Shown in pieces: positions 31,412 to 42,432 of a stretch of 64,000 nucleotides of DNA (within the stretch, counting starts at the first letter, position 1; the number at the start of each line of letters is the position of its first letter). The stretch is from NCBI RefSeq assembly GCF_037076455.1, contig NZ_AP028679.1:3859501-3923500 (forward strand). The letters are read 5' to 3'. Origin of the DNA: Desulfoferula mesophila. Lineage in GTDB: Bacteria > Desulfobacterota > Desulfarculia > Desulfarculales > Desulfarculaceae. The position numbers were made by a program, and so were the translations under genes. The notes under the pieces were generated by a model. That model had not been told where the DNA came from and made no database searches. It saw only the letters and a list, made by a program, of their open reading frames with translations.

Positions 31412-32430
31412 TGCGCCTGGCCCTTTGCGGCATGCCCGGCGCGGGCAAGTCCACCCTGTTCACCGCCCTGGCCGGACGCCGGGCCGGGGGAGCCGGGCGC
31501 GGCGAGGCCAACATGGCGCTCTTAAACGTGCCCGACGAGCGGGTGGACAAACTCAGCGCCCTGTACAAGCCCAAGAAGACCACCTACGCCCAGATCACCT
31601 TTGTGGACCCGCCGCCGCCCCCGGCCAAGCCCGAGGACCCGGCGGCCAAGCTGCCGGCCGAGTTGGGCCACGCCGACGGCCTTTTGCAGGTGGTGCGCAA
31701 CTTCGACGGCGGCCTGGGCGCGCCGGACCCGGCCGGGGAGTATCGCGACTTCCTGGACGAGCTGATCCTGCACGACCTCATCACCGTGGAGCGCCGCCTG
31801 GAGCGCATCGCGCTGGACCGCCAGCGGGGCCGCGACGTGGATGGCGAGGAGCTGGCTCTGTTGACCCGCGCCCAGGAGATGCTCAACGCCGAGCAGCTGC
31901 TGGACGCCGACGAGGAGATACCCGACCACCCCAAGCTCAGGGGCTTCGGGCTACTCACGGCCAAGCCGCGCATCGTGGTGGCCAACAACGCCGAGGACGA
32001 CCCCGAGCCGCCGGATTTGGGCGACGGGGTCGCGCCGGTGGTGGCCCGCGCGGCCATCGAGGCCGAGCTGGCCGAGCTGGAGCCCGAGGAGGCGGCCGAG
32101 TTCATGGCCGACCTGGGCATGGCCGAAAGCGCCCTGGATCGCCTGATCTTCGCGGCCTACGCCGCCTGCCGCCTCATCAGCTTCTTCACCGTGGGCGAGG
32201 ACGAGGTGCGCGCCTGGACCATCACCCAGGGCACCCTGGCCCAGCAGGCCGCCGGGGTGATCCACTCCGACCTGGAGCGCGGCTTCATCCGGGCCGAGAT
32301 CATGCGCCACCAGGACATTTTGGAGATGGGCTCCGAGGCGGCGGTCAAGAAGGCGGGGCTCATGAAGGTGGTGGGCAAGGACCATCTGGTGAGCGACGGC
32401 GAGGTCCTCCACGTGCGTTTCAACGTATAA
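31411..32430 (+). CDS. Divergent YchF-like (DUF933/TGS) GTPase
   Basis: 339 residues. P-loop GMPGAGKST at 7-15 and a C-terminal TGS/DUF933-like part with SFFTVGEDEVRAW, AAGVIHSDLERGFIRAE and HLVSDGEVLHVRFNV, the end typical of YchF/OLA1. The DxxG switch (DIAGL in YchF) is replaced by a proline-rich stretch (DPPPPPAKPEDP), and the N-(K/M)-x-E base-recognition motif is only vaguely present as ANNAEDD. The normal YchF is well conserved, so this is probably a paralogue with a changed nucleotide site. Overlaps hemB by one base (TGATG), hence co-translated. Confidence 0.75.
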   Translation: MRLALCGMPGAGKSTLFTALAGRRAGGAGRGEANMALLNVPDERVDKLSALYKPKKTTYAQITFVDPPPPPAKPEDPAAKLPAELGHADGLLQVVRNFDGGLGAPDPAGEYRDFLDELILHDLITVERRLERIALDRQRGRDVDGEELALLTRAQEMLNAEQLLDADEEIPDHPKLRGFGLLTAKPRIVVANNAEDDPEPPDLGDGVAPVVARAAIEAELAELEPEEAAEFMADLGMAESALDRLIFAAYAACRLISFFTVGEDEVRAWTITQGTLAQQAAGVIHSDLERGFIRAEIMRHQDILEMGSEAAVKKAGLMKVVGKDHLVSDGEVLHVRFNV

Positions 32431-32454
32431 TAGGGCTTAAGGGGCGTCTAACAC

Positions 32455-32483
32455 TTGACAGAAGCGCCCCCACGCACTAAATA
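32455..32483 (+). promoter_or_regulatory. Promoter of tRNA-Met
   Basis: TTGACA (32455-32460, perfect), 17 bases, TAAATA (32478-32483, four of six). Ends 11 bases before the tRNA, as expected for a stable RNA gene. Confidence 0.75.
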
Positions 32484-32494
32484 TTAGCCTCTCT

Positions 32495-32571
32495 GGCGAT
32501 GTAGCTCAGATGGTGAGAGCATGCGGCTCATATCCGCAGTGTCCGGGGTTCAAGTCCCTGCATCGCCACCA
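32495..32571 (+). tRNA. tRNA-Met (CAT), probably elongator
   Basis: 77 bases, acceptor GGCGATG/CATCGCC, D arm TAGCTCAGATGGTGAGAGC, anticodon stem TGCGG/CCGCA with loop CTCATAT, T arm GGTTCAAGTCC, encoded CCA. The acceptor starts with a paired G, unlike initiator tRNA, so elongator Met is likely; a lysidine-modified tRNA-Ile (CAT) is not excluded. Confidence 0.88.
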
Positions 32572-32582
32572 TAGCCAGCACG

Positions 32583-32613
32583 ACCAGCCGCTTTCGGGCG
32601 GCTGGTTTTTTTA
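32583..32613 (+). terminator. Rho-independent terminator after tRNA-Met
   Basis: Perfect 9-bp stem (32583-32591 with 32598-32606), six-base loop TTTCGG, followed by a run of seven T. Confidence 0.9.
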
Positions 32614-32721
32614 GTGCTCCCGCTCTGTATATGGCGGGGTCGCTCGGCCCAGGCGGAAAAGAGCCGCGCCCCTCGGGCCTGGTTTTAGCGAGAGCCCCCC
32701 GGCCGAGACGGAGCCGGCCCT

Positions 32722-33551
32722 TCAGTCCAAGGTGACCCTTCCCCGGGTGGTGCCGCCCTGGCGCACCATTATGGCTCGCACCAGAACTCCATGTTCTTGC
32801 CCCGGCTCCAGCACCTCCACCGCGTACACCCCCGGGACCAGGGCGAAATGCCCCGGCGATCGGGCCCGGCCTGCCCCTCGGTCAGGTAGTAGCCGTCGTC
32901 GCGGTACACCTTGATATTGGCCTGCACCGGCCGCCCCCCTTTGACGGCCTCCACCTCCAGCCAGCCCTGCACGAACTCGGCGCCAAGCTCCACTCGGCCG
33001 CCCGGCTCCAACCGGAAGGGCGCCAGCCGCACGGTGGGGCCGTCGGGCAGGCCGGTGTGCAGCACCACGGCGCGGTAGCGGCCCGGGGGCAGTTTTAGCT
33101 CCACCCAGCCGCGGGGAGGCACGGCCATATCCTTGACCAGTCCGTCCCCCGGCTGCCGGTACACGTACAAGCGCCCGAAGGTGGGGCGCCCGTTCATGCG
33201 CACCGCGACCCGCAGCCGGGCCGCCTGGTTGGGGGCCGCCGCCTTGGGCTCCACCTGCACCCGCATCCCAGGAGACAAAGGTACGACCACCCGGCGCTCG
33301 GCCAAAAGCAGCCGCTCCCCCCGCTGCTCCACCACCTCCCACTCGCCCAGAAGCATGGGCAGGCCGCCGGCCAAATACACCAACTCCACCCGGCTGCCTG
33401 GGGCGAGTTCGGCGGGGACCTCCAGTTTGAGGCTGGCCCGGCCTTGGCCCGACTTGGCCACCTGGGCGGTTAGCCCGGCCAGGGCCGCCGCCGGAACCAG
33501 CAACAAAACCAGCCAGAGGCACCAGACGATCAGAGTCGCGCGCACGGCCAT
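32722..33551 (-). pseudogene. Secreted beta-rich protein, interrupted by a frameshift near 32850
   Basis: From ATG 33551 (MAVRATLIVWCLWLVLLLVP) the frame has a clear signal peptide, then about 220 residues of beta-rich sequence (VELKLPPGRYRAVVLHTGLP, VQANIKVYRDDGYYLTEG). After ...GPDRR the frame runs into unlikely text, while the next frame continues sensibly with HFALVPGVYAVEVLEPGQE to a stop at 32722. One missing base in the GGGG run near 32850 would join them. It may be a true pseudogene or a sequencing error. Repeated pattern 'PPGRY / VPGVYAVEV' suggests carboxypeptidase-regulatory-like or PEGA-type folds. Function unknown. An upstream ATG at 33590 is possible. Confidence 0.6.
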
Positions 33552-33805
33552 AATTGTGCCTTTCCCGAAAACCCGGACGATATTGGGCATTGCGTTTTCG
33601 GCCCCGGTAATCTACAAACAAATCAGTTGCAATATACCATCGCGGGGGCCGGCTAATGAAACCTCCCATCCCTCCTTAAGACGACTCCTAACAAATAAAG
33701 CCTTCCGGCAGGAATTACCTATACCAAGCCCTGTTTCTTCCATCTTCCAGCGCGCACCGGCTTGCCCCTCTGATTCATGGAAAGACCTGCAAAGAGGAGA
33801 AACCC

Positions 33806-35041
33806 ATGAGATTCTTCCGCCTATTCTGCCTATTCCTGTTTTGCCTGCTCCTTTGGTCCCCAACCGCCACTGCCGAGACCCTGCAGGAATGCGTCAATCG
33901 CTATTGTCCCGCCTGCGCCAACTCGGTCAGCCTGTTGGGCCAGTCCACCTCCCGTGATTGCGAGGCCTGCAAAGCCCAGCGAAGCAATGAGATCTCCCGA
34001 TGCGCCCAACCCGCCTCGCCCGGTGGCGGAGGTGGCGGAGGTGGCGGGGGCGGAGGTGGCGGGGGCGGAGGAGGCGGTGGTGGCGGCCGGGTGCCGGCCC
34101 TGGGCGCGGGCCAGGACGGCGGCCGTTGCTATGTGGGCTCGCGGCCGGGTACCAATCCCACCCAGTATGCGGTGGCATGCGACGGCAACGACGGGCCGGG
34201 GACCTGGAAGCTGAGCAACCACGGCGCCTACCACATAGAGCTGGGGCCCACCACCTGGGCGGCGTGCTGGAACTACGTCAACGCGCGCCGCACCGATCCC
34301 AGCGGGGGGCGCTGCTATGTGGGTTACAACCCCAGCACCCGGCGCTACGCCGTGGCCTGCGACGGCAACGACGGCACCGCCGGACAAAAGCTGGCCAGCC
34401 AGGGCTACACCAGCATCGTCAAGGGCCCGAGCACCTGGAACCAGTGCTGGACCTATGTGCGCAACAAACAACCCGGAGGGAAACCGGTCAACCCCACCGG
34501 CCGCTGTTTCGTGGGCTATAATCCGGCGACCAAGCGCTATGCCGTGGCCTGCGACGGCAACGACGGCACCGCCGGACAAAAGCTGGCCAGCCAGGGCTAC
34601 ACCAGCATCGTCAAGGGCCCGAGCACCTGGAACCAGTGCTGGACCTATGTGCGCAACAAACAACCCGGAGGGAAACCGGTCAACCCCACCGGCCGCTGTT
34701 TCGTGGGCTATAATCCGGCGACCAAGCGCTACGCCGTGGCCTGCGACGGCAACGACGGCACCGGCTCCCACAAGCTCGTCACTCATGGCTATACCGCCAT
34801 CGTTCGCGGACCCACCTCCTGGGACAACTGCCAGCGTTACGTCAAGGCGGTGAACAAGCCTCCCACCTGCCTGGTGGGCTTCAACCGCGACACCGGGCGC
34901 TACCTGGCGGTAATGGACGATCCCGCGGGTTCGGCCAGCGGCAAGTTGGTGCGCGGGGGCTACAACGTGATGGTGTTCCGGGGCAAAAACATGAACGAAT
35001 GCCAAAGCTTCATCCGCTCCAAGTTGCAAGGTAACCGCTGA
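33806..35041 (+). CDS. Secreted Cys-repeat protein with polyglycine linker
   Basis: 411 residues. Signal peptide 1-23, then a small Cys-rich head (C29, C34, C37, C52, C55, C66), a run of 22 glycines at 73-94 and five tandem repeats of about 60-64 residues to the C-terminus. Repeats 1-4 share C-Y/F-V-G, YAVACDGNDG, KL, GY, GP and W..C..YV with three cysteines each; the fifth has two and lost CDGNDG. Repeats 2 and 3 are copies of one 192-base unit identical over 191 bases. Ribosome site GAGGAG precedes ATG. I recognise no family. Likely periplasmic or extracellular and disulfide-bonded, with calcium binding by the Asp-rich motif possible. Confidence 0.8.
   Translation: MRFFRLFCLFLFCLLLWSPTATAETLQECVNRYCPACANSVSLLGQSTSRDCEACKAQRSNEISRCAQPASPGGGGGGGGGGGGGGGGGGGGGGRVPALGAGQDGGRCYVGSRPGTNPTQYAVACDGNDGPGTWKLSNHGAYHIELGPTTWAACWNYVNARRTDPSGGRCYVGYNPSTRRYAVACDGNDGTAGQKLASQGYTSIVKGPSTWNQCWTYVRNKQPGGKPVNPTGRCFVGYNPATKRYAVACDGNDGTAGQKLASQGYTSIVKGPSTWNQCWTYVRNKQPGGKPVNPTGRCFVGYNPATKRYAVACDGNDGTGSHKLVTHGYTAIVRGPTSWDNCQRYVKAVNKPPTCLVGFNRDTGRYLAVMDDPAGSASGKLVRGGYNVMVFRGKNMNECQSFIRSKLQGNR
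34022..34087 (+). repeat. GGN microsatellite encoding 22 glycines
   Basis: Twenty-two consecutive GGT/GGC/GGA/GGG codons with internal triplet-pair repetition (GGTGGCGGA). Such a tract can change length by slippage in steps of three bases, changing the linker without breaking the frame. Confidence 0.9.
34349..34732 (+). repeat. Tandem 192-bp direct repeats within the Cys-repeat gene
   Basis: Units 34349-34540 and 34541-34732 are identical over 191 bases; similarity runs on into a third, more diverged unit. This signals recent unequal duplication of one protein domain. Confidence 0.9.
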
Positions 35042-35113
35042 CCCGGCCCCCGGAGGCCTCAGACCACCCCTGGCCGCGAGAGGACCCCGCGGCCGCCAGC
35101 CGGAGAAGAGATC

Positions 35114-36808
35114 ATGCGTGTGCCCAGAGTGCCGGTTCTGGCCTTGTGCCTCGGCCTGACCCTCGTCGTTGCCTGCACCCAGACCAGTCCCCCCGCCCCG
35201 GAGCGGACCGCGCCGCCGGCCTCGGCCAAGGCGCAGCCCCCGGCCTCACCGCCGCCAGCCCCCCAGCCGAAGCTGACCCCGGCCAACGCCCCGGCTCTAA
35301 TGGGCGACACGGGCAGGTCGCGGCGCATTGTGGAAGCGGCCCCGGGGGCCGCGGCCGTGCAACGCATGCCCAGCCAACCCACCGACCGGGAGACCTACCA
35401 GGAGATATCCTCCAACCCGGTGCGCCGGGTGGCCGAGCACCCGGTATCCACCTTCAGCGCGGACGTGGACACCGGGGCTTACGCCAACGTGCGCCGTTTC
35501 CTGCGCGAGGGCCGTCTGCCCCCCAGGGACGCGGTGCGCATCGAAGAGATGATCAACTACTTCCCCTACGCTTACCCAGGTCCCCGCGACACAAAGGTCC
35601 CCTTTGCCGCCGCGGTGGAGATCGCCCCCACCCCCTGGAATCCCCACACCCTGCTTTTGCGCCTGGGCATCAAGGGCTATGAGGTCCAGGCGGCCCAGCG
35701 CCCCGCCGCCAACCTGGTGTTTTTGATCGACGTCTCCGGCTCCATGCGCAGCCCGGACAAACTGCCCCTGCTCAAGAAAGCCCTGGGGTTGCTGGTGCGG
35801 CAGCTGCAGCCCAGGGACCGGGTGAGCATCGTGGTTTACTCCGGAGCCTCCGGGGTAGCGCTGCCGCCCACCCCCGGCGACCAACAGGCGGTCATACTGG
35901 CCGCAGTGAACGGCCTGCGCGCCGCGGGCAGCACCGCCGGGGGCCAGGGCCTGCAACTGGCCTACGACCTGGCCCGCCAAGCCTTCATTCCCCAGGGGGT
36001 CAACCGCATCCTCCTGGCCACCGACGGCGACTTCAACGTGGGCATCACCAATTACCGCCAGCTCATGGACCTAGTGGCCGGCCAGCGCAAGACCGGGGTA
36101 GGCCTGACCACCCTGGGCTTCGGCCGGGGCAACTACAACGAGCGGCTCATGGAGCGCCTAGCCGACGTGGGCAACGGCAACTACTTTTATATCGACAACC
36201 TGAACGAGGCCCAGAAGGTGCTGGTGGACCAGCTTGCCGCCACCATGCTCACCATCGCCCAGGACGTGAAAATCCAGGTGGAGTTCAATCCGGTGGTGGT
36301 GGCCGAGTACCGCCTGATCGGCTACGAGAACCGCCTGCTCAAGCGCGAGGACTTCACCAACGACCAGGTGGACGCCGGGGAAGTAGGCGCGGGGCACACG
36401 GTCACGGCCCTGTATGAGATCGCCCTGGTGGGTAGCCAGGGGATGCGCCTGGAGCCCCTGCGCTATGCCCCGGCGGCTGCATCCCCGGCCTCCCCCGCCG
36501 CCCGTAAGGAGCTGGCCTTCCTGAAGATCCGCTACAAGCTGCCCGGGCAGCAAAAGAGCCTTCTAATGCAGACCCCCATTGCCCGCAGCCAGGTGCGCCG
36601 CGACTTGGCCGCCGCCCCGGCCGACTTCCGCTGGGCCGCGGCGGTGGCGGCCTTTGGCGAGATCCTGCGGGGTGGAGTATATACCGGAGAGTTCAGTTAC
36701 CCGCAGGTGCTGGCCCTGGCCCAGGGAGCCAAAGGCGACGACCCTTACGGCTACCGGGGCGAAATGCATAGCCTGGTGCGCCTGGCCCAGAGCCTGGACC
36801 ATCGCTGA
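35114..36808 (+). CDS. VWA-domain lipoprotein, YfbK-like
   Basis: 564 residues. Lipoprotein signal with VVAC lipobox at about residue 21, Pro/Ala-rich linker (about 25-60), an N-terminal VWF_N-like part with VSTFSADVDTGAYANVRRFL, a von Willebrand factor A domain with the complete metal site DVSGSM, and a C-terminal YfbK-like part (about 400-564, LKREDFTNDQVDAGEVGAGH). YfbK homologues are widespread but of unknown function; surface protein-protein binding is likely. It lies 72 bases after the Cys-repeat gene, and both encode secreted proteins. GGAGAAG precedes ATG. Confidence 0.9.
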   Translation: MRVPRVPVLALCLGLTLVVACTQTSPPAPERTAPPASAKAQPPASPPPAPQPKLTPANAPALMGDTGRSRRIVEAAPGAAAVQRMPSQPTDRETYQEISSNPVRRVAEHPVSTFSADVDTGAYANVRRFLREGRLPPRDAVRIEEMINYFPYAYPGPRDTKVPFAAAVEIAPTPWNPHTLLLRLGIKGYEVQAAQRPAANLVFLIDVSGSMRSPDKLPLLKKALGLLVRQLQPRDRVSIVVYSGASGVALPPTPGDQQAVILAAVNGLRAAGSTAGGQGLQLAYDLARQAFIPQGVNRILLATDGDFNVGITNYRQLMDLVAGQRKTGVGLTTLGFGRGNYNERLMERLADVGNGNYFYIDNLNEAQKVLVDQLAATMLTIAQDVKIQVEFNPVVVAEYRLIGYENRLLKREDFTNDQVDAGEVGAGHTVTALYEIALVGSQGMRLEPLRYAPAAASPASPAARKELAFLKIRYKLPGQQKSLLMQTPIARSQVRRDLAAAPADFRWAAAVAAFGEILRGGVYTGEFSYPQVLALAQGAKGDDPYGYRGEMHSLVRLAQSLDHR

Positions 36809-36827
36809 ATTCGACCTTGTTCATCCC

Positions 36828-36859
36828 GGAGCCGCCCGCCGGGGCGGCTCCTTTTTTTT
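36828..36859 (+). terminator. Terminator of the VWA gene
   Basis: GGAGCCGCCC pairs with GGGCGGCTCC around a CGCCGG-type centre, followed by eight T. Confidence 0.9.
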
Positions 36860-36909
36860 GGCCCGCGAGGGGGCGGAGCGCACCGGGTCGTTTTGAGCAA
36901 CCGTGATTG

Positions 36910-38070
36910 ATGCGCTACTACTTTTTCCTCATAGCCCTGCTTTCGGCCTTTCCCGCCCTTAGCACCGACATGTACCTGCCGGCCCTGCCGGTATTGCAGG
37001 AAACCTGGGGCCAGCCCCTGGCCACGGAGAACCTCACCCTGATCTCCTTCTTCGTAACCTATTGCCTTTTCATGCTCATCTACGGGCCGGTCTCCGACCG
37101 CATCGGCCGGCGCAAGCCTCTTTTGGTGGGCATCGCCGGCTATGTGGTGGCCTGCGCCGCCTGCGCCGCCTCCAGCGGGGTGTGGATGATGGTGGGGTTT
37201 AGGGCCCTGCAGGCGGCCGGGGCTGCCTCGGCCTCGGCACTGGCCCTGGCCATCGCCAAGGACGTCTTCGAGTCCGAGAAGCGGGCCCAGATCATTGCCT
37301 ACGTCTCGGTGATCATCGCCCTGGCCCCCATGCTGGCCCCCATCATCGGCGGCTGGATCATGACCCTGCTGGACTGGCCCTGGGTTTTCGCCGTCCAGGG
37401 CCTCCTGGGCCTGGTGGCCCTGGCCGCGGTGTGGCGCATGCCCGAGCCGCTCAGGGTCTTTTCCGACGACAAGCTCTCGGCCACCCTGACCTTGTACGTG
37501 CGCATCCTGGCCAACCTCCGCTTCACCGGACTGAACCTGTCCACCGCCCTTATGGGCCTGCCCTTTTTCGCCTTCATCGCCGCCTCCTCGGACATCTACA
37601 TCACCCGCTTCGGCCTTAGCGAAACCGACTTCGGCTACTTCTTCGCCTTCAACGCCCTGTCGTTGATGAGCGGCTCGTTCGCCTTCACCCGCCTGTCGCG
37701 CCTGCTCTCCACCAAGCACGTGCTGACCCTGAGCTTCGCGGGCATCTTCGCCGCCGGGCTGTGGATGAGCCTGGGCAGCCACGCCGGGCCCTGGGACCTG
37801 GCCCTGCCCATGTGGGTGCTGGGGTTTTGCCTGGGCTTGTCGCGCCCCCCGGCCACCAACCTCATCCTGGACCAGGTGGATCACGACACCGGCAGCGCTT
37901 CCTCGCTCATCGCCTTCAGCTTCATGATGCTGGGGGCGTTGGGCATGTTTCTGGTGTCGTTGGATTGGGCCGACAAGATCACGGTCATCGGCGTGCTGGG
38001 GGTATTGGTGGGCGGGGTGGACTTGATATTCTGGGGTCTATCCGCCAAGCGCCTCGCCAAAAAAGCCTGA
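36910..38070 (+). CDS. MFS efflux transporter, Bcr/CflA type
   Basis: 386 residues with about 12 membrane helices. The start (FPALSTDMYLPALPVLQ) and motif A (GPVSDRIGRRKPLL, near residue 60) are typical of Bcr/CflA drug:proton antiporters, with the acidic D in helix 1. Substrate cannot be read from sequence. I start at ATG 36910; TTG one codon earlier is also open. The ribosome site is weak. Stands alone after the preceding terminator. Confidence 0.9.
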   Translation: MRYYFFLIALLSAFPALSTDMYLPALPVLQETWGQPLATENLTLISFFVTYCLFMLIYGPVSDRIGRRKPLLVGIAGYVVACAACAASSGVWMMVGFRALQAAGAASASALALAIAKDVFESEKRAQIIAYVSVIIALAPMLAPIIGGWIMTLLDWPWVFAVQGLLGLVALAAVWRMPEPLRVFSDDKLSATLTLYVRILANLRFTGLNLSTALMGLPFFAFIAASSDIYITRFGLSETDFGYFFAFNALSLMSGSFAFTRLSRLLSTKHVLTLSFAGIFAAGLWMSLGSHAGPWDLALPMWVLGFCLGLSRPPATNLILDQVDHDTGSASSLIAFSFMMLGALGMFLVSLDWADKITVIGVLGVLVGGVDLIFWGLSAKRLAKKA

Positions 38071-38278
38071 ACCTTATCTCCCGGCAAAATGGCCTTCCGC
38101 AGGCGCCAGCCGTCCCAATTTGATTGCAAAAATATCACCAGGTACGCGCTTAAAAAATCAGCGCTCAGCCCCACCATTTTTCCCCGAAGCGGCCATTCAC
38201 TACTAAAAAGAAAGTATTTGGAATAGGGGGCTTATTGTGTGATCATATGCGAGCTTAAGCGGACCAAGGGAGCAGGGC

Positions 38279-39067
38279 ATGCACAGGTTTGCCAACGGGT
38301 TGTGGGCAACAATTTCTCGCTCAGCAATGATCATTGCGTACTTCGGCAGTGCAGCTATCTGCCTGTGGAGCCTATCCATAGCATGGGAGATGGGCACTAT
38401 TACCTTTGCCTTGACAATAACACTCCCAGTCATAGCCCAAATCATTTTAGCAATAATAACGTGGCATGCTACCGGAACCTTCTTTAACTGGTACACCATG
38501 GGAGTGGCCCTTTGCGCCGTATGTGTTCCAGTTATACAATTATCTTCAGCAGTTACAGATTTTAAGGTGACGGATATAGGGTTGGTCATCGCTAAAATAT
38601 TAGCGGGTATTACCATAGTCACTTTAGCGGCGGCCCTGGCATTTTCAATCCTGCTCAATCCATCCAGCCGCCTATACTACGATAAAATATTGTCTCCACG
38701 CACCGCCAAAGGACAAGAGCATACCAAAAATTACAACCCGGAAAACATCGTCAATGCCTTTCTCCGCGCAGCATTATCAGGAGACAAATTCTCTGAAACA
38801 GGACTGGGAATCAATCTCAAGGAATATGACTATAAGCACTTCAAAGGCGATTTGCAGGAGCTGACAGGTTTTTTATCCGACGCATACAAATTTTCGCTGC
38901 AGGCCACTGACGGGTACCTTGAAGAAATCGGAGCCGGTTTTACGGGAAGATGGCGCAATGGTGTCCAAGCTTATTCAAATTTGATGGACGATGGATTAAA
39001 TAATTTTAATGCCGGAAATCTCAAATGGACATCAAGGGACCAAGAGCCATTGGTGGATCCCAAATAG
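38279..39067 (+). CDS. Unknown membrane protein, AT-rich
   Basis: 262 residues. Four hydrophobic helices in the first 130 residues (for example SAMIIAYFGSAAICLWSLSI), then a soluble, helical C-terminal part with DLQELTGFLSDAYKFSLQA. Base composition is much more AT-rich than its neighbours, and codon use (AAT, ATA, TTA) differs, so it was probably acquired. Ribosome site GGGAGCAGGG precedes ATG. I do not recognise a family; the layout of a membrane anchor with a cytosolic tail resembles some accessory effector proteins, but nothing more can be said. Confidence 0.65.
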   Translation: MHRFANGLWATISRSAMIIAYFGSAAICLWSLSIAWEMGTITFALTITLPVIAQIILAIITWHATGTFFNWYTMGVALCAVCVPVIQLSSAVTDFKVTDIGLVIAKILAGITIVTLAAALAFSILLNPSSRLYYDKILSPRTAKGQEHTKNYNPENIVNAFLRAALSGDKFSETGLGINLKEYDYKHFKGDLQELTGFLSDAYKFSLQATDGYLEEIGAGFTGRWRNGVQAYSNLMDDGLNNFNAGNLKWTSRDQEPLVDPK

Positions 39068-39170
39068 CATTTCGCCCTCAAAACAGGCAAAAACTGTAGT
39101 CGTAATATTAAGCGGCAAAGCTTTCCCGGACTTCCGCCCACCGAGCTCGCGCTTAATTTTTTTCGCCGCC

Positions 39171-39207
39171 AAAAAACGAGGGGAGCGGCCCGAGGCCGCT
39201 CCCCTAG
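39171..39207 (-). terminator. Terminator of the acidic protein gene
   Basis: On the minus strand AGGGGAGCGGCC pairs with GGCCGCTCCCCT, followed by CGTTTTTT. It is 20 bases past the stop at 39227. Confidence 0.85.
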
Positions 39208-39226
39208 AGCCGCTCGGGGGCGAGGG

Positions 39227-39634
39227 TTACTCTTCGCCCAACACCACCAAAGCTTCCTGCTCCTCTTCCTCGTCCTCGGGCAGGATCTCGTAGACGATGA
39301 TGCCGTCGCTCTCCTCGCTGTAGGGGGCCATGCCGCCCACGAAACTGTAGTCGCCCTGCATCACCTTGCAGTCGAGCATCACCCCCTGGGCCGGGAGCTC
39401 CTCGATCTCCACGATCTCCTCGATGGCGATGGCGTCGCCCGCCGAGAAGGGCTCGCCGTCCAGGGGCAGCTTGGCGAACTCGGCGGCGCACACATCGCCC
39501 ACCTCCTCCACCGAGTTGGCCCGGAGCATGTAGCTGAAGTAGCAGGAACGGTCTTCGCCGTCCTCGCTGGGTTTCATTTCGGCATAGCAATAAACCATGA
39601 ACAGCTTGCCGGGCTCTTGGTTCGCAGAAGCCAT
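39227..39634 (-). CDS. Unknown acidic protein
   Basis: 135 residues, strongly acidic, with a C-terminal EDEEEEQ stretch. Starts MASANQEPGKLFMVYCYAEM with an AAGGCGGTG ribosome site. Contains alternating hydrophobic residues typical of beta-rich folds. No signal peptide, so cytoplasmic. Between this start and the divergent 39762 gene are TATATA-type AT-rich bases that may hold promoters for both. No family recognised. Confidence 0.75.
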   Translation of the reverse strand: MASANQEPGKLFMVYCYAEMKPSEDGEDRSCYFSYMLRANSVEEVGDVCAAEFAKLPLDGEPFSAGDAIAIEEIVEIEELPAQGVMLDCKVMQGDYSFVGGMAPYSEESDGIIVYEILPEDEEEEQEALVVLGEE

Positions 39635-39761
39635 GTGGCACCGCCTTTTTTTAGAGTTTGTGGACCGCCATGCGGTTGGTGGTCATTTGCCGGTACTATA
39701 TACCCTGAGGGCCATGGCGCAAGTAAAGCAACCACCTTAAAGGTGTCGGGAAAGTGAAAAC

Positions 39762-40115
39762 ATGCTGAGCTGGCAGGAATTGAAGGCGCGCCCGGAGATC
39801 GTGGGCGCCATCGATTGGGAGATAACCCCGGCCCAGGCCTTTGAGGCCTTTCAGATCAAGTCCACCACCGCCCAGCGGGGCCTGGGCACGGTCTACTACT
39901 TCTACCTCTCCACCTGGCGGGGCGAAAACCAGGTGCTGTTGGTGGAGCGCACCTACGTGGACAGTGAAGAGGTGGCCCGGGCCCCGGTGCCCCAGGAGTT
40001 GGTGGCGGCCGCCGCCCGGGCGGGCGAGGGCCAGGACATGCCTCGGGGCCAACTGGCCCTGAGCCCGGAGATCAAAGGCTGGCTGCGCCGGGAGCTGGGG
40101 TTGGAAAAGGCCTAG
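39762..40115 (+). CDS. Unknown small protein
   Basis: 117 residues starting MLSWQELKARPEIVGAIDWE, mixed alpha/beta with VYYFYLSTWRGENQVLLVER. No signal peptide or cysteines. GGGAAAGTG precedes ATG. The last four bases overlap the end of the opposing Rho_N-like gene. Function unknown. Confidence 0.75.
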   Translation: MLSWQELKARPEIVGAIDWEITPAQAFEAFQIKSTTAQRGLGTVYYFYLSTWRGENQVLLVERTYVDSEEVARAPVPQELVAAAARAGEGQDMPRGQLALSPEIKGWLRRELGLEKA

Positions 40116-40375
40116 CGTCCCTGGCAGGGGGCGATCCAGGCGCAGTCGTCCTGGCGGCAGTCCTGGATTTGTCCGTAGCAGGGATGGTTGCCTTCGGCCA
40201 CCTGCACCGCGCGGATCAGCTCGTCCTCGGGCAGCTTGGCGAAGTTCTTCACCTTCAGTTTGCGGGCGCATTCATAAAGCTGAATCAGGCGGCTGAGGTC
40301 GTCCTTTTTGAGCTTGCTGTACCTGGGGATTTTCAGCTTGCGGGCGGTTTCTTTTAGTTCTTTGAGCGTGGCCAT
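40112..40375 (-). CDS. Small protein with two Rho_N-like motifs and a Cys-rich tail
   Basis: 87 residues. Two copies of a Rho N-terminal (SAP-like) helix motif: LKELKETARKLKIPRYSKLK (about 4-23) and CARKLKVKNFAKLPEDEL (about 36-53). The tail has four cysteines (C66, C73, C78, C84 or near), enough for a metal site. The Rho_N fold can bind nucleic acid. GGGGAAAAG precedes ATG. Convergent with the 39762 gene. Nucleic acid binding is inferred. Confidence 0.7.
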   Translation of the reverse strand: MATLKELKETARKLKIPRYSKLKKDDLSRLIQLYECARKLKVKNFAKLPEDELIRAVQVAEGNHPCYGQIQDCRQDDCAWIAPCQGR

Positions 40376-40485
40376 GGTCTTTTCCCCTTTAGGTATAACG
40401 GCGCACTTGGCGCGCCTCTATCCTTAAAAGTATCCGACCATATCGTCCGTCTGGCAAGGGGCATTTGGGGGGCCGCGCGGCGCGT

Positions 40486-42321
40486 CTATTCGCAGCCCGA
40501 GGCCCCGCAGAAGGAGCAGGCCAGGCAGCCGCCGTCGGTCTTGAGCAGGCCGCCGCAGCGGGGGCAGTGGCCGGAGTGGTGCACCGCCGGCGGGGCCTCG
40601 CGTCCGGGCAGGGGCAACAGCTCCAGCACCTGGCGGCCCCGGCAGCCGGAGCGGAACACCGTGACCCCCTTGAGGCCCAGGGCGTGGGCCCTGGTAAAGA
40701 CTCGGCGCACCTGCTCGGGGCCGGCCTGGGCGTCCAGGTTCACCGTCTTGCTCACCCCGTTGTCGGTGGAGGCCTGGAAGGCGGCCTGCATGGCCAGGTG
40801 GGCCTCGGGGTCGATCTCGTGGGCCGTGGCGAATACCTGGCCCAGCTCTGGCGGCAGGCCCTGGATCGCCGTGGCGTTGCCCGAGGCGGCCAGGGTCCGG
40901 CGCTGCTCCGGGGTGTCCAGACCCAGAGCGGCCAGGCGGGCCAGGAAGCGGGGGTTGAACTCCACCAGATCCCGCTCCTCAAGCACCCGGCGGGTGTAGG
41001 CCAGGGCGAAGTAGGGCTCTATGCCCGAGGAGCAGCCCAACAGCAGCGACAGGGTGCCGGTGGGGGCCACGGTGGTCACCGTGGCGTTGCGCATGTGACT
41101 CCAGCCCCCGGCCAGGCGGCTGGCCGCGAAGGCCGGGAAGCTGCCACGCCTTTGGCCCAGCTCGGCGCTGGCCGCCCGGGCGGCGGCGGCGATGCGGGCC
41201 ATGACCTCCCGGCCCAGGGCCGCCGCCTCCGGCGAATCGTAGGGCAGCTCCAGGTCGGCCAGCAAATCGGCCAGGCCCATGACCCCCAGTCCTATCTTGC
41301 GGGTCAGGCGGCTGGCCCGGGCCACCTGGGGCAGGGGGTGGCGGTTTATCTCGATCACGTCGTCTAGAAAGCGCACCGCCAGGGCCGCCGCCTCCTCCAG
41401 GGTTGGGAAGTCCACCTCACCGTCCTTGAGAAAACGGGGCAGCACCAGGGAGCCCAGATTGCAGGACTCGTGGGGCAGCAGGGGCTGCTCGCCGCAGGGA
41501 TTGGTGGCCTCCAGGGGCCCCAGGCCTGGGGTGGGGTTGCCCCGGTTGATGGCCTCGTAAAAGGCCAGGCCCGGCTCGCCGCTCTGGTGGGCCGCCTGGA
41601 CCATCTGCTCCAGCAGCCCGGCGGCGGACACGGTGCGCGCCACCGCGCCGTCGCGGGGGTTGACCAGTTGCCAGGGCCCGTCCGCCCGGGCGGCGGCCAT
41701 GAAGGCGTCGTTGACCAGCACCGAGATGTTGAAGTTCTCCAGCACCCCGGGGCGGCGCTTGGCCGCGATGAAGGCCTCGATGTCCGGGTGGCTCACCGCC
41801 AGGATGCCCATGTTGGCCCCCCGGCGGGTGCCCCCCTGCTTCACCGCCTCGGTGGCCATGTCGAACACCCGCATGAAGCTCACCGGGCCGGAGCTGACCC
41901 CCCGGGTGGAGGCCACCACGTCGCCCGCCGGGCGCAGGTGGGAAAAGCTGAAGCCGGTGCCCCCGCCGGACTTGTGGATCAGGGCGGTTTCCTTGACCGC
42001 CTCGAAGATGCTCTCCAGGCTGTCCTCCACCGGGATGACGAAGCAGGCGCTGAGCTGGCCCAGCTCACGGCCCGCGTTCATCAGGGTGGGGCTGTTGGGT
42101 AAAAAGAGGCCCTGGCTCATCAGGCCCAGAAAGGCCCGCTCCATCTCCCGCGCCGCGGCCGCCCCGCCCCAGGGCTCTTCGCCCCGGGCCACGGCCCCGG
42201 CCACCCGCGCCAGCATCTGCTCCGGGGTCTCCACCACCCGGCCCTCGGCGTCGCGGGCCAGGTAGCGGCGGCGCAGAACCGGCAGGGCATGGGGCCCGAA
42301 TGGGAAAGGCGTGGCATCCAT
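40486..42321 (-). CDS. nrdJ: Adenosylcobalamin-dependent (class II) ribonucleotide reductase
   Basis: 611 residues. Reduces ribonucleotides using adenosylcobalamin, without need for or harm from oxygen. Active-site residues are in place: C93 (SACFVIP) and C287 (SCNLGS) as the redox pair, N274-P-C276-G-E278 with the thiyl-radical cysteine and glutamate, and the phosphate loop APTGTLS. The C-terminus has a Cys-rich ribbon (CPRCGG, CLACSFCGASGC) that likely re-reduces the active site. The N-terminal ATP-cone domain is absent, so activity control by dATP is not expected. No cobalamin riboswitch seen upstream. Confidence 0.93.
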   Translation of the reverse strand: MDATPFPFGPHALPVLRRRYLARDAEGRVVETPEQMLARVAGAVARGEEPWGGAAAAREMERAFLGLMSQGLFLPNSPTLMNAGRELGQLSACFVIPVEDSLESIFEAVKETALIHKSGGGTGFSFSHLRPAGDVVASTRGVSSGPVSFMRVFDMATEAVKQGGTRRGANMGILAVSHPDIEAFIAAKRRPGVLENFNISVLVNDAFMAAARADGPWQLVNPRDGAVARTVSAAGLLEQMVQAAHQSGEPGLAFYEAINRGNPTPGLGPLEATNPCGEQPLLPHESCNLGSLVLPRFLKDGEVDFPTLEEAAALAVRFLDDVIEINRHPLPQVARASRLTRKIGLGVMGLADLLADLELPYDSPEAAALGREVMARIAAAARAASAELGQRRGSFPAFAASRLAGGWSHMRNATVTTVAPTGTLSLLLGCSSGIEPYFALAYTRRVLEERDLVEFNPRFLARLAALGLDTPEQRRTLAASGNATAIQGLPPELGQVFATAHEIDPEAHLAMQAAFQASTDNGVSKTVNLDAQAGPEQVRRVFTRAHALGLKGVTVFRSGCRGRQVLELLPLPGREAPPAVHHSGHCPRCGGLLKTDGGCLACSFCGASGCE

Positions 42322-42432
42322 GACTCTAACTTAACGCCAAAGCGGGGGGGCAAGGCAAGAGCATGCGAGAACACCCGGCTCAGTTATTGGAAGGCAACTG
42401 CAGGGTAATTCTGGCGGCAGGGAATTGAACCA

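Follow-up and report, generated by a model that had tools for sequence, protein, structure and literature searches.

The gene at positions 33806-35041 (+) encodes a protein of 411 aa in which neighboring repeats are almost identical, and it raises the questions of how an exported protein comes by a further domain and what a chain of such domains might do. It was found in a window of 64,000 nucleotides from Desulfoferula mesophila, the whole stretch of DNA analyzed here, and the features discussed below are listed in Table 1. A first-pass annotation of the sequence had proposed a surface or periplasmic protein with five CDGNDG domains behind a polyglycine tract.

Table 1. Features of the repeat gene and its surroundings, in window coordinates
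Feature	Position	Strand	Basis or remark
tRNA-Met (CAT), left border of variable site	32495..32571	+	ARAGORN
Species-specific cassette, ~4.3 kb, tRNA-Met to MFS gene	32572..36909	.	Comparison with five relatives
Exported-type gene, reading frame broken	32722..33590	-	Weak A2M bait-region similarity, below Pfam cut-off
Signal peptide, residues 1-23	33806..33874	+	Read from sequence, putative cleavage after ATA; hydropathy peak at residues 3-21
N-terminal segment, residues 24-72, six cysteines	33875..34021	+	Sequence
22-glycine linker, residues 73-94, mixed GGN codons	34022..34087	+	
Domain 1	34118-34303	+	
Domain 2	34304-34495	+	
192-bp tandem duplication, 2.2 copies	34342-34763	+	Tandem Repeats Finder: 99% matches, score 837
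38-bp block, likely crossover site	34342-34379	+	Identical to domain 4 (34726-34763), 1 base off domain 3 (34534-34571)
Domain 3, hybrid: domain 4 head and domain 2 tail	34496-34687	+	
Domain 4	34688-34858	+	
Domain 5, most divergent; without CDGNDG and without middle cysteine	34859-35038	+	
YfbK-type vWA lipoprotein, 72 bp downstream of repeat gene	35114..36808	+	Pfam YfbK_C 3.7e-67, vWF_A 1.4e-36; lipobox by eye

Architecture and export of the repeat protein

The mature part of the protein (~40.6 kDa, calculated pI 9.4, 20 cysteines) comprises a cysteine-bearing N-terminal segment, for which no relative was found elsewhere in the same genome, a glycine linker and five related domains of 57-64 aa each. 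The annotated number of domains is correct; the CDGNDG motif after which the repeats had been named is confined to domains 1-4, domain 5 having MDDPAGS at that place. That the domains bear cysteines was borne out: two cysteines occur in all five and a third in domains 1-4 only, and since the latter have three cysteines each, one of these may be free or paired elsewhere. The domain had not been recognized in the annotation, in agreement with the lack of any accepted Pfam or NCBIfam family. Four regular expressions for the calcium-loop spacing of EF-hand, dockerin and RTX proteins were compared with CDGNDG, which fits none of them, other types of calcium site being possible.

Export is supported by the signal peptide, which was read from the sequence and ends in ATA-E. 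No hydrophobic segment follows after residue 24 (best 19-residue mean 0.42). As to the surface location proposed as one possibility, no lipobox, LPXTG motif or C-terminal hydrophobic segment was seen in the protein. Likewise, neither an anchor nor a stalk domain of the kind that marks an anchored adhesin was found among accepted Pfam and NCBIfam domains. A search for a sigma-70-like promoter gave none.

A young duplication and a hybrid domain

The repeats agree exactly over 191 bp (34349-34539 and 34541-34731), and the sole odd base, 34540 in the middle copy, falls in a tyrosine codon and is silent. The annotated identity of the units over 191 of 192 bases was thus right and is far beyond chance. 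Within the duplicated stretch the heads of domains 3 and 4 show no difference in 38 positions and the tails of domains 2 and 3 none in 116; the heads of domains 2 and 3 differ at 16 of 38 positions, and the ungapped tails of domains 3 and 4 at 42 of 92. In the 38-bp core, domains 2 and 4 are identical as well (0/38). By this pattern of identity domain 3 is of hybrid origin, and four domains are the simplest assumption for the ancestor.

A single unequal crossover in the 38-bp block would fit the step from four domains to five, to judge from the aligned copies, and a similar trace would be expected from gene conversion or from replication slippage in that block. One base has changed since the duplication, and the domain pairs outside the duplicated stretch are much older. 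With its hybrid domain and 38-bp core, in which the putative crossover itself becomes visible, the gene would offer a clean, datable snapshot of an exported multi-domain protein gaining a module. The first-pass annotation went further and held that domain number is changing now. The duplication is indeed young, but ongoing change was not seen, and length variation is not visible because, among the genomes searched, the gene occurs in the window's genome only. An assembly error behind the duplication is unlikely, because the genome is a single 4.48-Mb contig and one base distinguishes the copies.

Comparison of the domains with each other gave dN < dS in all six pairs among domains 1-4 and in three of the four pairs with domain 5, the exception being the pair of domains 1 and 5 (dN 1.01, dS 0.84); these values come from small site counts with several dS near saturation, and the pairs of domains 2/3 and 3/4, which take in the duplicated stretch, are not independent.

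The glycine linker

The 22 glycine codons of the linker are mixed (6 GGT, 9 GGC, 5 GGA and 2 GGG), and Tandem Repeats Finder reported units of 9, 15 and 24 bp, none of them a pure triplet. Because of this mixture the tract is no clean microsatellite of triplets, and the slippage-prone triplet repeat that had been proposed here is weakly supported; the repeat structure suggests past expansion by longer units instead. GGN runs of such length (at least about 18 codons) occur at one place in the genome (five overlapping matches) and in none of 19 relatives. The protein may have a tunable reach, as was also proposed at first.

A species-specific cassette beside tRNA-Met

New here is that the repeat gene belongs to a cassette of 4.3 kb with tRNA-Met on one side and an MFS gene on the other. 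To the left of the cassette lie hemB, a YchF-like gene (identified by Pfam) and tRNA-Met; hemB was found in five of the seven other genomes of the genus, and the block of these three is colinear in all five. Beyond tRNA-Met the five relatives differ. The site is nearly empty in two of them, with 97 bp (G006) and 93 bp (G001) between tRNA-Met and the MFS gene. In a third, G005, the site measures 5.2 kb and encodes a glycosyltransferase of 1025 aa as well as a protein with a radical SAM counterpart (Pfam-tested in G006); a fourth, G002, has a 992-aa Eco57I-type restriction-modification gene, and the fifth, G003, has genes for a tyrosine integrase and for a resolvase. The MFS gene was not found in the 6.8 kb of G002 and the 10.2 kb of G003 that were covered. 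This differing content shows the site to be variable, its genes changing from one closely related species to another.

A protein of 418 aa, which Pfam places among the radical SAM proteins in locus L052, precedes the MFS gene in G005 and follows it in G006 and G001. Its coordinates are 6072-7328 in L051 (turned), 3513-4769 in L052 and 3584-4840 in L053, and it has no match in positions 36910-42361 of the window.

The site resembles tRNA-associated genomic islands in that it exists in occupied and near-empty versions, varies in gene content immediately downstream of a tRNA gene and holds an integrase in one relative, G003. It differs from them in the window itself: there is no integrase among the three genes of the cassette (the minus-strand gene with the broken frame, the repeat gene and the YfbK-type vWA lipoprotein gene), the end of tRNA-Met (its last 12 bases or more) was not found again in 32001-39500, and the G+C content of the cassette (0.672) is like that of its flanks (0.668 and 0.630). 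Just inside both cassette ends, at 32584-32612 and 36828-36859, strong hairpins with T runs that resemble terminators were noticed by eye.

The minus-strand gene contains a frameshift, real or from sequencing, and no relative of it was found in 19 other genomes of the family. Its 273-aa frame (32769-33590) has an odd tail, and an overlapping frame (32722-33669) has a plausible C-terminal end. The gene downstream of the repeat gene belongs to the YfbK-type vWA lipoproteins (PF12034, PF12450), to which the repeat protein itself does not belong. In the same 19 genomes the YfbK-type protein has one full-length relative (G011, 62%) and partial vWA matches in seven. In the 1.5 kb upstream of the G011 relative another gene starts and no repeat protein is encoded, from which it follows that the YfbK-type and repeat genes need not work together.

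Search for relatives of the repeat protein

A profile of the domain matched the genome of origin only, both within its class (none of 62 other genomes) and in a sample of its phylum (none of 394 others, with at most 16 candidates scored per genome), and it had no match in 396 genomes of the phylum of genome G441, scored with the same limit. The full-length protein gave matches in 4 of 60 relatives, its own genome included; the other three (G050, G047 and G008) were dropped, their matches being glycine-rich or proline/glycine low-complexity stretches or containing internal stops. A scan of 84,980 species genomes, which is insensitive as it used one 10-residue pattern only, yielded 11 stretches. 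One of them is a 15-residue match in Nocardia that overlaps with an opposite-strand frame of 789 aa and was judged to be due to chance.

Viral contigs and phages yielded no relative of the domain. Two weak plasmid matches were rejected, one from Halomonas (E 9e-3) that lies on the strand opposite an annotated gene and one from Sinorhizobium (E 0.7) whose frame differs from that of the local long ORF. PHROGs gave five weak matches, the best to phrog_18588 (unknown function) at 0.0057. With the whole protein, Pfam returned eight families, all below the cut-offs (best E 0.023), and with the five domains searched singly no family at E <= 10. No NCBIfam family was found for the protein and no sequence match to the five domains in the PDB; two PDB profile matches (0.38 and 0.86) were at chance level. 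Literature searches turned up no paper on the protein or its domain. Within the genomes, plasmids, phages and profile libraries searched, the repeat protein is, by sequence comparison, an orphan.

Predicted structure and possible function

A structural model made from the five domains has a beta-beta-alpha-beta-alpha fold (mean pLDDT 84.9, pTM 0.70). A model of two domains (mean pLDDT 76.0, pTM 0.45) predicts two compact domains with a linker of low confidence between them (residues 57-64), an arrangement like beads on a string.

The account that we favor, with our confidence evenly divided, is that of an orphan exported protein in which a flexible 22-glycine linker joins the N-terminal six-cysteine segment to five small modules of this predicted fold, with a binding or adhesive role, perhaps together with the vWA lipoprotein. 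The modules would be stabilized by disulphides, as the cysteine pair in all five suggests, and would serve, in a periplasmic or extracellular location, as a series of binding or adhesive units that the linker holds off the N-terminal part; an unequal crossover, or slippage, in the 38-bp block would have raised their number from four to five. The vWA lipoprotein gene, which starts 72 bp further on, is possibly co-transcribed with the repeat gene, and the two products may act together in an envelope or surface interaction. Judged from architecture alone, a binding or adhesive role seems the most likely one, and we propose it with modest confidence.

With the general class of bacterial exported tandem-domain proteins, such as fibrillar adhesins and Rib-domain proteins, the repeat protein shares a signal peptide, a linker and near-identical tandem domains that expand by recombination. 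It differs in having five small domains only, no recognized anchor or stalk family, a neighborhood of Gram-negative type and no relatives found. The repeat protein is of local interest and not a new kind of system.

Occurrence in one genome only, next to a gene with a broken frame and at a tRNA-linked site of the kind that collects cargo, might also be expected if the gene were lineage-specific filler, either a young orphan or selfish cargo without selected function, or if the duplication were partly an assembly artefact. Yet the ORF, the signal peptide and the domains are intact, the predicted fold is confident and dN lies below dS in every pair among domains 1-4, and the single contig and the distinguishing base mentioned above argue against an artefact. 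We consider this explanation rather unlikely.

Comparison of the domain with MbtH-like proteins

To our knowledge, the MbtH-like fold is known only from cytoplasmic helpers of peptide synthetases. The domain might be a very distant descendant of such a protein that was exported, acquired disulphides, was multiplied and lost its role in NRPS. When 323 Foldseek candidates were re-aligned to the domain model with VIA, MbtH proteins made up the 12 best rows and 13 of the best 25 of 323. The best of them (6eby_A) reached Z 5.9 with an rmsd of 1.9 over 48 aligned residues of 54, compared to Z 3.6 for the best non-MbtH row. For the two-domain model MbtH proteins ranked 1, 2, 3 and 5 among 24 rows (best Z 5.2). 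A profile comparison with 11 MbtH sequences scored 19.84, which was reached by none of 200 column shuffles (best 16.86), the reversed profile scoring 10.15, and the pattern G[YW]..[IV].....C..Y[VI] was recognized by eye as common to the domain and MbtH.

Nevertheless, all Z scores are below 8, and Foldseek itself returned nothing at E <= 0.001 from the PDB or viral models and no MbtH protein among the 50 matches listed. The hhalign probability with MbtH is 12.9%, in a register that pairs strand 2 of the domain with strand 1 of MbtH, unlike the structural alignment, and MbtH was picked for comparison once the fold result had been seen. Pfam searches with single domains did not recognize MbtH (PF03621), which has no match in the genome of origin (G000) or in the other 117 genomes of the phylum searched, and the signal peptide argues against activation of NRPS adenylation domains. 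Three conserved tryptophans are given as a hallmark of the MbtH family in PMC3537567, and pocket residues of MbtH are dealt with in PMC7539972. The tryptophans invariant in the 11 sequences (W26, W36 and W56) have no matching tryptophan in the aligned region of any of the five domains, and the domain was therefore not filed as MbtH.

The domain is similar to MbtH-like proteins in size and has, at similar places, a last-helix cysteine and Y[VI], and they gave the best structural re-alignment of its predicted form (Z 5.9, 48 residues); unlike them, it is exported, stands in tandem, has three or two cysteines and lacks the MbtH tryptophans. Given the differing register, the Z scores below 8, the post hoc comparison and the missing tryptophans, MbtH is a possible fold relative and membership in the family is not indicated; descent from an MbtH-like protein seems to us doubtful. 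The fuller proposal, an MbtH-like fold re-used outside the cell as a disulphide-stabilized tandem module, with a conserved DNA core as the site of the unequal crossover that multiplied it, and carried as tRNA-side cargo, is speculative and would be a distinctly unlikely outcome. If the link were proven, a fold of cytoplasmic helpers of enzymes would turn out to occur in exported tandem modules as well.

Possible similarity to defence proteins

HEPN-type proteins are known as an all-helical, cytoplasmic kind of protein. They enter the discussion through PADLOC, in which PDC-M05B matched the whole repeat protein at 2e-6 and its five-domain part at 5e-7, next to a REase_II match at 1.5e-5; PMC12988326 describes PDC-M05 as a nucleotidyltransferase with a HEPN-domain protein. 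Together with the Eco57I-type restriction-modification gene in G002 and the integrase in G003, these matches might suggest that the cassette lies at a hotspot of mobile elements and forms an anti-phage or toxin-antitoxin module. We regard this as very improbable: only one of the five domains matches PDC-M05B alone, the REase_II match spans two neighboring domains, the exported domain with its predicted alpha/beta fold and three strands is unlike a HEPN-type protein, and the other cassette genes, one with a broken frame and no family and one for the YfbK-type lipoprotein, have no PADLOC match at 0.1 and include no nucleotidyltransferase. In our judgement the PADLOC matches are weak ones summed over repeats, and they were rejected. 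Three MbtH controls did not match PDC-M05B. The E-value of this match improves with the number of domains submitted, from 0.0011 for one to 1.7e-5 for two and 5e-7 for five, which may serve as a warning about E-values of repeat proteins or may reflect an unexplained similarity.
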